A program made the position numbers and the translations under genes. Positions 33,276 to 59,036 of a stretch of DNA of 64,000 nucleotides are shown one piece after another. The DNA is from an uncultured Clostridia bacterium. Its GTDB lineage: Bacteria > Bacillota > Clostridia > Christensenellales > Borkfalkiaceae. Every line of letters begins with the position of its first letter. Within the stretch, counting starts at the first letter, position 1. The DNA is taken from positions 124,001-188,000 of the forward strand of contig CALVLH010000001.1 in assembly GCA_944336975.1 (NCBI GenBank). The letters are read 5' to 3'. Below the pieces are notes generated by a model. That model was not told where the DNA came from. It saw only the letters and a program-made list of their open reading frames with translations, and ran no database searches.

Positions 33276-33289
33276 TCGAACGTAACAAC

Positions 33290-33460
33290 TTCATACCGAC
33301 GAAGGTACCCTTGCCGCGGCAAGGGTTCAATAGGGAAGAGAGCCGATTGCTCCACAGCCCCCGCTACTGTCCGGTCGCGGCGTCCTTTCACTGTGAAAAC
33401 GGGAAGGAAGGACGCGGATACGCGCCGTTTTAAGTCAGGAGACCTGCCTTCGTCGGCGAT
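33290..33460 (+). promoter_or_regulatory. Cobalamin riboswitch
   Basis: A class-I type B12-sensing RNA. The closing stem P1 is ten perfect pairs (33296-33305 with 33447-33456). Conserved blocks are present in order: TTCAATAGGGAA, CCACAGCCCCCGCTACTGT, TCACTGTGAA with GGGAAGG, and the B12 box AAGTCAGGAGACCTGCC (33431-33447). No clear promoter is visible between degV and the riboswitch, so it may be transcribed from the degV promoter. It is followed by an intrinsic terminator before the DUF4430 gene, the usual off-switch layout. Confidence 0.93.
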
Positions 33461-33532
33461 TGCTTTGCTTTTTCGGGTCGGAGAAAGAAAGGCGTGGAAA
33501 AAATGAGAGGATGTCCGGATCCTCCTGTTTTG

Positions 33533-56374: not shown

Positions 56375-57325
56375 TCAGTCTTTCGTTTTTCCGTCGGGGC
56401 GGGAGGAATAGGTCGCGGCGATCTGCCGCGCCGCCGCTTCCACCCGTTCGGCGAGCGAGGCGGGGGAGAGTACTTTGAATCCCGCGCCCGCCGAGAGGAT
56501 CTTGCCGAGCAGGGTGTCGTCGTCGGGAAGGGAAACTTCGGCAAGGCATTTTTCGTCGCGGTGGACGATGTTTTCCACGCCCAGCCATTCTTCCGCAAAG
56601 GGGAGCGCTTCGGGGGAGACGGAAAAGACCGCCTGCACGGTATTTTCGTCGTCGTGCCAGAAGTTGAGGGGGATGTCCTCGCGGCGGAAGGGAAGCGCCT
56701 CAAAATACTCTCCCGTGCGCAGGAGCGAGCGCATCCGTCCGAGCTTGAACAGGCGAAAGGCTTCCCGCTTGCGGCAGAAGGCATAGACATACCAGATGTT
56801 CTGCTTATAGACGAGCAGATGGGGCAGGATCCTGCGCTGAGTGCGTTCGCCTTCGCGGGAGATGTAGTCGATGTCCAGCGCCTCTTTTTCCTCGACGGCG
56901 CGTTCGACGAGCGCGAGTTTCTCCGAAAAGCGTTGCGTATCCCCCCAGGTTCCGCTGTCCACGAGGATGTTGCCCGAAAGTGTGAGATCTTTCTGTTCCG
57001 ATTTGACCTGAGCGGAGAGCTTGGCGATCGCGGAAGCGAGCACGGGATCGGAAAGCTGTTCGTTCATGGCGAGCATCGCGTCGATGGCGCGCCCGTATTC
57101 CTCCTTCGTCATCAGCCCCTTGGGCAGCTTGAACGCGTCCGAGATGTAGATGCCTCCCTGCGAGCCGCGTGCGACGTCGATGGGGATCCCCGCAACCGTC
57201 ATCTCGTCGATATAGCGATAAACGGAACGCACGGAAACGTCGTAACGCGAGGCGAGGTATCCCGCGCTGACCTTGCGTTTGGCGAGCAGGGTAAACAAAA
57301 TTCCCAACATGATCTGATATTTCAT
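56375..57325 (-). CDS. WYL-domain transcriptional regulator (YafY/DeoR-like)
   Basis: A 316-residue regulator: an N-terminal HTH_11-type helix-turn-helix (about residues 5-60, VSAGYLASRYDVSVRSVYRYIDEM) and a WYL domain (about 140-225, with IDYISREGERTQRRILPHLLVYKQNIWYVYAF). WYL domains bind nucleic-acid or nucleotide-type ligands. AGGAGGG ribosome binding site. A TGACA-ATATT-TGTCA palindrome overlaps its own -35, suggesting autoregulation and control of the divergent small gene. Confidence 0.9.
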   Translation of the reverse strand: MKYQIMLGILFTLLAKRKVSAGYLASRYDVSVRSVYRYIDEMTVAGIPIDVARGSQGGIYISDAFKLPKGLMTKEEYGRAIDAMLAMNEQLSDPVLASAIAKLSAQVKSEQKDLTLSGNILVDSGTWGDTQRFSEKLALVERAVEEKEALDIDYISREGERTQRRILPHLLVYKQNIWYVYAFCRKREAFRLFKLGRMRSLLRTGEYFEALPFRREDIPLNFWHDDENTVQAVFSVSPEALPFAEEWLGVENIVHRDEKCLAEVSLPDDDTLLGKILSAGAGFKVLSPASLAERVEAAARQIAATYSSRPDGKTKD

Positions 57326-57352
57326 GCAAAAACCCTCCTTTTTGACAAAAAA

Positions 57353-57381
57353 ATTTTAACATATATGACAATATTTGTCAA
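57353..57381 (-). promoter_or_regulatory. Promoter of the WYL regulator gene
   Basis: On the minus strand: TTGACA (57381-57376), 17-bp spacer, TAAAAT (57358-57353). Confidence 0.88.
57366..57380. promoter_or_regulatory. Candidate operator palindrome
   Basis: TGACA-ATATT-TGTCA, a perfect inverted repeat overlapping the -35 of the WYL gene and upstream of the TATAAT (57393-57398) of the divergent small gene. Probable binding site of the WYL regulator. Confidence 0.5.
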
Positions 57382-57422
57382 GTATATGGGAATATAATAC
57401 GGGTGTTAACGGAGGAAATGAA

Positions 57423-57605
57423 ATGAATGCAGAACGCATGATCGAAAATTATCGCACGGAACAGCGCCGCCGCCGCGACGCGGAGCTTTGCCGCAGGATG
57501 GCGGAACATCGCACGAGAGAAGAGATGCTCGCGCGCCTTGCCTCGCTCCGCGGGCTGAACGTGGAGGAACGTGGATATGCGAGGGGCGTTCCGCGCGCGG
57601 TCTGA
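57423..57605 (+). CDS. Small charged protein divergent from the WYL regulator
   Basis: A 60-residue protein rich in Arg and Glu, predicted mainly helical, with no transmembrane segment and no family I recognise. It has a strong ribosome binding site (GGAGG, seven bases before the ATG) and a TATAAT at 57393-57398. An overlapping ATG at 57418 is in another frame and too close to the ribosome binding site. Its position suggests it is a target of the WYL regulator. It may be a small regulatory or effector protein. Confidence 0.6.
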   Translation: MNAERMIENYRTEQRRRRDAELCRRMAEHRTREEMLARLASLRGLNVEERGYARGVPRAV

Positions 57606-57639
57606 GCGTCCGCAAAGGCGAAAATATGGCGAAAAATCG

Positions 57640-57668
57640 TTGACAAACGCCGCGGGCGGGAGTATAAT
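57640..57668 (+). promoter_or_regulatory. Promoter of the tyrS attenuator
   Basis: TTGACA (57640-57645), 17-bp spacer, TATAAT (57663-57668), both consensus. The expected start near 57675 is about three bases before the leader-peptide ATG. Confidence 0.92.
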
Positions 57669-57677
57669 ATTTTCATT

Positions 57678-57752
57678 ATGAAGCAACTTTTCAACATCGC
57701 GATCTACGTACACGCGTATTACCGCCGCGGTAATACGTCTTTTCGCGCGTAA
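57678..57752 (+). CDS. Tyr-rich leader peptide of tyrS (attenuator)
   Basis: A 24-codon ORF starting almost at the predicted transcription start. Tyr codons are 10 (TAC 57705), 14 (TAT 57717) and 15 (TAC 57720): three Tyr in 24 residues, two in tandem, followed by two Arg codons. The stop TAA is at 57750-57752. The Tyr codons, the hairpin covering codons 14-15 and the downstream terminator together suggest that ribosome stalling on Tyr codons senses charged tRNA-Tyr. It has no Shine-Dalgarno sequence. Confidence 0.75.
   Translation: MKQLFNIAIYVHAYYRRGNTSFRA
57715..57737 (+). promoter_or_regulatory. Pause-type hairpin over the tandem Tyr codons
   Basis: Nine-bp perfect stem (57715-57723 with 57729-57737), loop GCCGC. 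The 5' arm contains Tyr codons 14 and 15, so a ribosome stalled there would prevent it from forming. Confidence 0.7.
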
Positions 57753-57787
57753 ATCGCAACGCAATCGGAAGGATTACGGTTTGCGCG
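57744..57787 (+). promoter_or_regulatory. Candidate antiterminator for tyrS
   Basis: 57744-57756 can pair with 57777-57787, the 5' arm of the terminator: CGCGC with GCGCG, AAA with TTT, then T-G, C-G and G-C, with two bulged bases. The upstream strand covers the leader stop codon, so a ribosome finishing the leader would block it. Confidence 0.55.
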
Positions 57788-57809
57788 GATACGCGCAAAC
57801 CGTTTTTTT
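57777..57809 (+). terminator. Intrinsic terminator upstream of tyrS (attenuator)
   Basis: Eleven-bp perfect stem (57777-57787 with 57792-57802), loop GATA, seven T (57803-57809). Placed between the leader peptide and the tyrS ribosome binding site. Confidence 0.93.
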
Positions 57810-57842
57810 ATGATCACATCAGTATCAAGGAGTAAGGCAAAG

Positions 57843-59036
57843 ATGAAAAACGTAATGGATACCCTGCGCGAGCGCGGATTCATCAAACAGACGGTCTTCG
57901 AAGAGGAGCTCTACGAAAAGCTTGGGAAAGAGAGCGTTTCTTTCTATATCGGATTCGATCCGACCGCGGACAGCCTGCACGTCGGGCATTTCATGCAGCT
58001 CATCGCCATGAAGCATATGCAGGACGCGGGACACCGTCCCATCGTGCTCATCGGCGGCGGTACGGGCATGATCGGCGATCCGTCGGGCAGGACGGATATG
58101 CGTTCGATGATGACGCGAGAAACGGTGAAATATCATGTGGAATGCTTCAAAAAGCAGATGGCGCGCTTTATCCGCTTCGACGGCGAAAACGGCGCGATTG
58201 TCGTCGACAACGCCGACTGGCTGATGAGTCTCAATTATATCGATTTCCTCCGCGAAGTGGGCGTGCATTTCTCCGTCAACAAAATGCTCACGGCGGAATG
58301 CTACCGTTCGCGCATGGAGAAGGGACTGACCTTCCTCGAATTCAACTATATGCTCATGCAGGCGTATGACTTCCTGGTACTTCATCAGAAATACGGCTGT
58401 TCTCTGGAATTGGGCGGCGACGATCAGTGGAGCAACATCCTCGCGGGCGCGGATCTCATCCGCCGCAAAGAGCAGAAACCCGCGTATGCGATGACGTTCA
58501 CCCTGCTCACGACGAGCGAGGGCAAGAAGATGGGCAAGACGGCGAAGGGCGCGGTCTGGCTGGACGAGAACAAGACGTCGCCGTACGAGTTCTATCAGTA
58601 CTGGCGCAATACGGCGGATTCGGACGTGGAGAAGTGCCTCAAACTCCTCACCTTCCTGCCGTTGGACGAGATCGCTTCGCTGTGCGAGCACAAGGACGAG
58701 CGCATCAACCGTGCCAAGGAAGTGCTGGCGTTCGAGCTGACCGGGATGGTGCACGGCGAAGAGAAGGCGCTCTCGGCGCAGGCGCAGGCGAAAGCGGCGT
58801 TCGGCGGCGAAGGGGAGATGCCCGTCAAGAACGTCCCCGCAACGGTGGAAACGGTTCTGGGGGCGCTCGTTGCGAGCGGGATCTGCAAATCCAACGGCGA
58901 GGCGCGCAGGCTCATCGAGCAGGGCGGCGTTTCCGTCGGGGAAACCAAGGTCACGGACATCAATATGCCCGTCCCCGGAAAGGAGTTTATTTTGCATAAG
59001 GGCAAGAAAGTCCACGTCAAGGTCGTGATCGGATAA
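57843..59036 (+). CDS. tyrS: Tyrosyl-tRNA synthetase
   Basis: Class I synthetase for tRNA-Tyr, 397 residues. The HIGH motif is HVGH (in [12 protein letters not shown], about residues 43-54), and KMSKS reads KKMGKTAKG (around 225), followed by an S4 RNA-binding domain at the C-terminus (residues about 330-395). AAGGAG ribosome binding site nine bases upstream; the frame extends 11 codons earlier, but only this ATG fits. Preceded by the attenuator described separately. TAATG junction with the YigZ gene. Confidence 0.96.

Follow-up and report, generated by a model that had tools for sequence, protein, structure and literature searches.

In enterobacteria, the trp, his and pheST genes are governed by leader-peptide attenuators with alternative 1:2, 2:3 and 3:4 helices, and tyrS of Firmicutes is usually under a T-box. 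According to published reports, hisS*/hisZ of bacilli are predicted to be attenuated by His-codon leaders, as are the histidine genes of three lineages of Firmicutes (PMC2965389, PMC9413887), a leucine-rich attenuator peptide controls the ilv-leu operon of Staphylococcus aureus, with mutants as evidence (PMC5794164), and leader attenuators have been predicted for trpS and leuS of Streptomyces, the same source placing tyrosine genes in other species under T-box control (PMC1262725). The trpL RNA of Sinorhizobium meliloti begins at the leader ATG (that is, it encodes a leaderless attenuator peptide; PMC7298713), and leaderless initiation has been discussed for ilvB of Corynebacterium (PMC11857589).

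Here we describe, within a 64,000-nucleotide stretch of DNA from an uncultured Clostridia bacterium (hereafter, the window), a region upstream of the tyrosyl-tRNA synthetase gene that is very probably a ribosome-mediated transcription attenuator of tyrS with a Tyr-codon leader. Judged by the features that can be tested in sequence, this putative attenuator is of the known ribosome-mediated kind. Like the enterobacterial trp, his and pheST systems, it joins an amino-acid-rich leader, alternative helices and an intrinsic terminator to a biosynthetic or synthetase gene; unlike them, it precedes tyrS in uncultured Clostridia that keep T-boxes elsewhere, and its open reading frame (ORF) looks leaderless and is without a Shine–Dalgarno sequence. 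With the His-leaders of Firmicutes it shares the status of a leader attenuator predicted by comparison where other members use a T-box, whereas the His-leaders concern histidine, other genes and other lineages (PMC2965389, PMC9413887). The S. aureus ilv-leu system is likewise a leader-peptide attenuator of Firmicutes, yet it serves a branched-chain operon and another amino acid, and the available portion of the report does not mention a leaderless ORF (PMC5794164); the Streptomyces trpS and leuS leaders, as far as the accessible text describes them, are attenuators of aminoacyl-tRNA synthetase genes in a Gram-positive organism but belong to Actinobacteria and to Trp and Leu (PMC1262725). The apparently leaderless leader peptide has its counterpart in S. 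meliloti trpL (PMC7298713), although both this system and Corynebacterium ilvB lie outside Firmicutes and do not involve tyrosine (PMC7298713, PMC11857589). A Tyr-codon leader attenuator of tyrS was not found in the open-licence full texts of PubMed Central, a scope outside which most subscription papers fall; the principle of attenuation is classic, and tyrS as its target, the lineage and the apparent translation start at the 5′ end are new to us.

The features of the locus, which lies in a source genome scanned as 1.7 Mb in 29 contigs, are collected in Table 1, and the identity of tyrS is certain from its TIGR00234 match. A preliminary description made from the letters of the window had listed a promoter, an ORF of 24 codons of which numbers 10, 14 and 15 encode Tyr, a hairpin holding the tandem Tyr codons, a strand over the leader stop codon, a terminator and tyrS, all of which we recover. 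The terminator, given there as 11 bp with seven T, may be counted in that way or as 12 pairs followed by six T (the last T of the first count being taken as paired). In the minimum-energy fold the inner hairpin has 11 bp rather than 9 bp (57714-57724 against 57728-57738), and the strand over the stop codon can indeed pair with the 5′ arm of the terminator (57746-57756 with 57777-57787), in an uninterrupted helix of 11 bp that includes two U.G pairs and zero bulges and needs neither of the two bulged bases ascribed to it earlier. The 1:2 helix, with one C.A mismatch in the window, is an additional helix absent from that description.

Table 1 Coordinates of the tyrS leader region in the window
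Feature	Position	Strand	Basis or remark
Promoter TTGACA-17-TATAAT, sigma-70-type	57640-57668	+	12/12 consensus match
Leader ORF, 24 codons, MKQLFNIAIYVHAYYRRGNTSFRA	57678-57752	+	Begins 9 nt past the -10 box; no visible Shine–Dalgarno sequence
Strand 1, partner 57748-57757 (1:2 helix), enclosing the inner hairpin	57699-57708	+	Fold; modest covariation
Tyr codon 10, within strand 1	57705-57707	+	Sequence
Tyr codons 14 and 15, tandem, on the 5′ arm of that hairpin-forming stretch 57714-57738	57717-57722	+	Sequence
Inner (pause-type) hairpin, 11 bp	57714-57738	+	Minimum-energy fold and covariation
Strand 2 (antiterminator strand) spanning the leader stop codon; partner 57777-57787	57746-57756	+	Covariation
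Terminator hairpin (strands 3:4), 12 pairs	57776-57803	+	Terminator scan and covariation
U-tract 3′ of the terminator	57804-57809	+	Sequence
Shine–Dalgarno sequence of tyrS, AAGGAG	57827-57832	+	Sequence
tyrS, tyrosyl-tRNA synthetase, presumed regulated gene	57843-59036	+	NCBIfam TIGR00234, 420 bits, cut-off 113.8

Positions 57660-57830 fold better than all 200 shuffles (z -4.0), a terminator scan of the region by itself finds one site against 1.1 expected (that is, not above chance), and 35 of 200 dinucleotide shuffles form a strand 2 duplex as good as that of the window. The same duplex test is clear in some other leaders and unclear in others because the region is G+C-rich, and an alignment-based test of strand 2 pairing is the better one. 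The case for the putative attenuator is one of comparison with relatives, not of the window taken alone.

For this comparison, tyrS was located in 101 of 103 genomes of the window's genus and in 191 of 201 genomes sampled across the family, and the upstream regions of 153 family genomes were read (98 from the same genus and 55 from other genera), covering 16 of the 18 sampled genera (g4 and g15 were left out); one locus (L040) is nearly without upstream sequence and untestable, and a few others are short. By a fixed criterion (that is, a near-consensus promoter, an ATG 5-10 nt past the -10 box and a short ORF carrying two or more Tyr codons), the element is present upstream of 57 of the 153 tyrS genes, 41 of 98 in the same genus and 16 of 55 from other genera, spread over six genera (g1, g3, g5, g8, g11 and g12), counts that are not independent given that relatives share descent. 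Control searches returned 0/153 antisense strands and 0/3060 dinucleotide shuffles, and, given promoter and ATG, ORFs of 14-31 codons with at least three Tyr codons follow in 53/57 real versus 18/2850 shuffled bodies. As this criterion itself demands Tyr, we also built a frame-blind covariance model, R1, that uses letters and pairs and ignores the reading frame, from 30 leaders picked for diversity among those then known. At E <1e-4 over the 153 loci, R1 matched exactly the 57 loci of the criterion, 27 of them outside the training set (21 known but unpicked, six found later), with one extra marginal match (L075, E 0.075). Each of the 57 R1-positive loci has the start codon, the frame and two or more Tyr codons, and since the two sets are identical, no family locus read keeps the structure at this E threshold without the Tyr ORF. 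The promoter scores 12/12 in 43 of the 57 leaders; the terminator was seen in 51 of the 51 leaders first found and later located in all 57, a stricter scan without long loops having overlooked eight of the first 51.

The remaining 96 of 153 loci, the untestable one counted among them, do not carry the element. Loss in close relatives, which the preliminary description had named as a possible refutation, is thus found in part, and it is mostly absence of the whole element, with the promoter -35 box some 36-118 nt before tyrS, and seldom half-decay. Five loci (L036, L071, L050, L075 and L108) appear half-decayed by eye, with a terminator-like or related hairpin and a Tyr ORF that is missing or free of Tyr. 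In other families of the order, 0/40 tyrS upstream regions (two of them truncated) carried the element by the fixed criterion, and at 24 further tyrS loci in other families no leader was judged plausible, three of them having chance-like ORFs with two Tyr codons.

Across 50 distinct leader peptides, Tyr is the commonest residue (206/991, 20.8%), as against 5/941 and 23/941 in the other two frames, and it stays frequent while the rest of the peptide diverges; lengths range from 14 to 31 codons across the family, and the two Tyr codons are used about equally (TAC 117, TAT 112).

The helices were compared in an alignment (A2) of 30 rows selected for diversity from the 51 leaders then known, three of which (genus g5) align poorly in strands 2-3 and were kept for pair counts but excluded from geometry, leaving 27 rows; an earlier alignment of 34 leaders, made for inspection, gave only the terminator as RNAalifold consensus. 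In A2, 85.1% of the cells of the antiterminator (2:3) are paired and 13 are changed on both sides (double-change cells), values that 0/500 shuffles reach on either measure; on the others, shuffles do as well in 1/500 (score), 30/500 (pairs with a double change) and 102/500 (pair types) cases, such that two of its five covariation measures are not clear of shuffles. When its strands are slid against each other, pairing falls to 23-54%. For the terminator (3:4), 90.0% of cells are paired with 30 double-change cells (0/500 shuffles, with one measure at 1/500), and for the inner hairpin, nine of whose 11 pairs were tested, 85.7% of cells are paired with 17 double-change cells (0/500 on either measure; 12/500 and 3/500 on others). 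The 1:2 helix is paired in 65.4% of cells, with shuffles as high in 7/500 cases for pairing, 24/500 for double-change cells, 22/500 for score, 191/500 for pairs with a double change and 123/500 for the last measure, which suggests modest covariation for this helix. The preliminary description had proposed looking in relatives for compensatory changes together with a conserved Tyr leader, and these are found, with covariation in the antiterminator, terminator and inner hairpin. Of the arrangement that it had equated with attenuation (that is, leader peptide, pause hairpin, antiterminator and terminator), the Tyr-codon leader, antiterminator and terminator are kept as a set, with covariation, in six genera.

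From these parts we infer translation of the ORF, dependence on Tyr, termination and read-through in the following way. RNA polymerase would start at the leader AUG or within a few bases of it, and a ribosome would initiate directly on the 5′ end of the RNA. When charged Tyr-tRNA is ample, the ribosome would pass the Tyr codons, reach the stop codon and cover strand 2, and after its release strand 1 and the inner hairpin would hold strand 2; with strand 2 occupied, strand 3 would pair with strand 4 and transcription would end near 57809. When charged Tyr-tRNA is scarce, the ribosome would stall on the Tyr codons (Tyr 15 being the most effective site in the window), cover strand 1 and open the inner hairpin, and strand 2 would then pair with strand 3 before strand 4 is synthesised, allowing tyrS to be transcribed.

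With an assumed footprint that extends 15 nt both ways from the P-site codon's first base, a ribosome stalled with its A site on any Tyr codon covers strand 1 in 27/27 aligned leaders and reaches strand 2 in 0/27, whereas a ribosome at the stop codon leaves strand 1 free in 24/27. The earlier expectation that a ribosome finishing at the stop codon hides strand 2 holds in the window and other long leaders (10/27) and fails in 17/27, where the ribosome ends 1-6 nt short; in these 17 the modelling only weakly suggests that the 1:2 helix would do the work. We also computed the expected 2:3 pairs in folds of the RNA extending through the terminator loop, with the bases under the ribosome footprint barred from pairing. 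Over the 57 leaders, the means are 9.2 with the ribosome at the last Tyr codon, 5.3 at the stop codon and 6.3 with no ribosome; the value at the last Tyr exceeds that at the stop in 49/57, and the stop state is lower than the ribosome-free state in 27/57, with no clear difference (Wilcoxon p 0.10, the rows not being independent). Because the contrast is large in long leaders (24 leaders with 24 codons or more; 8.3 at the last Tyr versus 1.9 at the stop) and small in short ones (33 leaders; 9.8 at the last Tyr, 7.9 at the stop and 7.1 with no ribosome), the long type would appear to behave as the textbook predicts and the short type to be explained only weakly by this model.

In the window itself, the expected 2:3 pairs are 11.8 at Tyr 15, 4.3 at Tyr 14, 0.6 at Tyr 10, 1.2 at the stop codon and 3.2 with no ribosome. 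The claim that stalling at the Tyr codons frees strand 2 is accordingly upheld in folding for Tyr 15 and in part for Tyr 14, and it does not extend to Tyr 10, at which a stall leaves the antiterminator unfreed. Stalls at many non-Tyr codons likewise free strand 2 (mean 2:3 pairs 9.3 at Tyr versus 8.5 at non-Tyr positions, Tyr being higher in 42/57 leaders), and as non-Tyr positions are nearly as good, specificity would have to come from the abundance of Tyr codons. In folding, the complete terminator outcompetes the antiterminator in every ribosome state tried, so the switch would have to be kinetic; a finished terminator that wins over the antiterminator is usual for attenuators.

How the ORF would be translated is suggested by its spacing. 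An SD-like 4-mer occurs within 12 nt upstream of the ATG in 1/57 leaders, and 132/153 family loci have one within 20 nt upstream of the tyrS match. The ATG lies 6-7 nt past the -10 box in 46/57 leaders and 9-10 nt past it in 11/57 (9 nt in the window), and transcription normally starts about 6-8 nt past the -10 box. Given this usual start distance, the leader ORF looks leaderless, with a predicted 5′ untranslated region of a few nucleotides at most, the start being placed from the promoter. The window's own genome has 22 sites with promoter and ATG 5-10 nt past the -10 box (L124-L145; a reversed-pattern control gave 0), of which 13 open ORFs of at least 100 amino acids, and several of these starts resemble what we take to be true protein starts (RuvC, thymidylate kinase and shikimate kinase). 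On the basis of these sites, long ORFs and true-looking starts, leaderless starts are perhaps ordinary in the genome, and translation of this kind may be common in the Clostridia lineage to which it belongs. Two further short ORFs in this genome look leaderless: one of 21 codons (L129, contig C2, around 86227) without an amino-acid run or Tyr repeats, followed by what by eye are a terminator-like hairpin and an acetyltransferase-like gene, and one of 14 codons (L125, contig C1, around 36134) before what by eye is an S13-like ribosomal-protein gene.

The fact that stalls at non-Tyr codons also free strand 2 in folding raises the possibility that the ORF senses translation in general (for example, slow ribosomes, inhibitors or general starvation), with Tyr codons adding little specificity, and the same genome does have the 21-codon leaderless-looking ORF without Tyr repeats before a terminator-like site. 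However, Tyr makes up 20.8% of 50 distinct peptides amid a diverging remainder, the gene downstream is tyrS, and Tyr- or Phe/Tyr-rich leaders precede DAHP-synthase genes in a related family, and we consider general sensing improbable. A plain constitutive terminator accompanied by a spurious ORF left over from the upstream gene might be imagined, given that about one terminator-like site is expected by chance in the region; with a consensus promoter sitting between the upstream ORF and the terminator, the ORF present at 57/153 loci versus 0/3060 shuffles, and helices that covary, conservation disfavours this explanation and we give it very little credence. Similarly, the strong and conserved hairpins could serve as an autoregulatory site bound by TyrRS or another protein with the ORF incidental, but every one of the 57 model-positive loci keeps the start codon, the frame and two or more Tyr codons, and the antiterminator covaries, which makes this highly improbable.

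A diverged, tRNA-sensing T-box leader might also be considered, a T-box being the habitual arrangement for a Firmicutes tyrS, and a genome of a sister genus (L182) has a T-box before tyrS at 95 bits against a cut-off of 93. At 57640-57842, however, no Rfam family reaches its cut-off, and a permissive scan (E <=10) of 57300-58000 yields only two unrelated matches below threshold and no T-box; with no match to RF00230, no T-box core motif in the upstream region, and only 149 nt between the -10 box and a point just beyond the U-tract (short against the 219 positions of the model), we reject a T-box at this tyrS and leave a diverged one next to no probability. Elsewhere in the window, a cobalamin riboswitch lies at 33286-33465 (RF00174, 82 bits).

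We return to the Tyr-codon attenuator and its place among the T-boxes of the family. The window's own genome has five T-box matches (one over the Rfam cut-off and four below it, all at E <=2.1e-8), none at tyrS; they precede leuA, pheS, thrS, cysE/cysS (cysE being named by eye) and ileS. All 61 family genomes scanned have T-box matches, which exceed the Rfam cut-off in 49 of them. Because T-boxes persist in these genomes, the tyrS leader would represent another sensing system at one gene and not a loss of T-boxes. The T-box of L182, in genus g9, places the other sensing system at the same gene within the same family. A tree of 53 tyrS loci, 32 of which have the leader, requires at least five state changes versus 16.8 with shuffled labels, and leader-bearing loci stand on both sides of its midpoint root, which makes an old origin with repeated loss likely. 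One leader with five Tyr codons (L178, genus g8) precedes a tyrS about 66% identical to that of the window, which would be explained by an old origin or else by separate capture.

Beyond the family, an order-wide R1 scan with stricter filters gave matches in 5/297 genomes and led to a leader before DAHP synthase in family f14, MKRNFVLNAYYYGYGYYYDGRCFDMR, leaderless by spacing, in a locus (L123) where the leader is followed by DAHP synthase and then prephenate dehydrogenase. Among five orthologous DAHP-synthase loci of this family, four (L186, which is the L123 entry, L188, L189 and L190) have a Tyr-rich ORF with 6-8 Tyr codons and the fifth (L187) has no Tyr-rich leader ORF; the ORF of L188 is not adjacent to its promoter, and no promoter was identified for those of L189 and L190. 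At a second DAHP-synthase paralogue (L191-L196), a conserved Phe/Tyr/Trp-rich leader, for example MNKLLKNVYYAFTFFFGWFYFSRYFVCR, is found at 6/6 loci, 9-10 nt past a promoter scoring 11 or 12 of 12 and with a terminator present; a strand directly behind the stop codon, a candidate antiterminator, can pair with the 5′ side and loop of the terminator in 6/6 (-10.5 to -13.6 kcal/mol, uncontrolled). A class-wide R1 scan of 391 genomes returned only two genomes of the genus and L122, although with stricter filters and eight candidates scored per listed genome it is weak evidence of absence. The last, a weak match in another family (E 0.006), was taken as chance because no aromatic or tRNA gene was recognised in the nearby ORF list.

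The ribosome and polymerase are regarded as uncoupled in Firmicutes, B. subtilis being a described case of runaway transcription. The idea that runaway transcription may be widespread in bacteria is reported in the accessible part of one source (PMC7858274). We put forward, as a tentative and rather doubtful extension, that a class of leaderless attenuators (Tyr leaders at tyrS, and Tyr and Phe/Tyr leaders at paralogous DAHP synthases) might run the aromatic genes of this order beside T-boxes, with 70S initiation on the emerging 5′ end keeping ribosome and polymerase in step.

In summary, the proposed attenuator would place ribosome-based sensing at one essential synthetase gene in genomes where T-boxes, which sense tRNA, are kept for other synthetases, and its gains or losses, together with one T-box at the same gene in one family, would offer a natural series for the replacement of one sensing system by another. 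If the ORF is truly leaderless, a start at the first base might restore the ribosome–polymerase timing that attenuation needs in Firmicutes.
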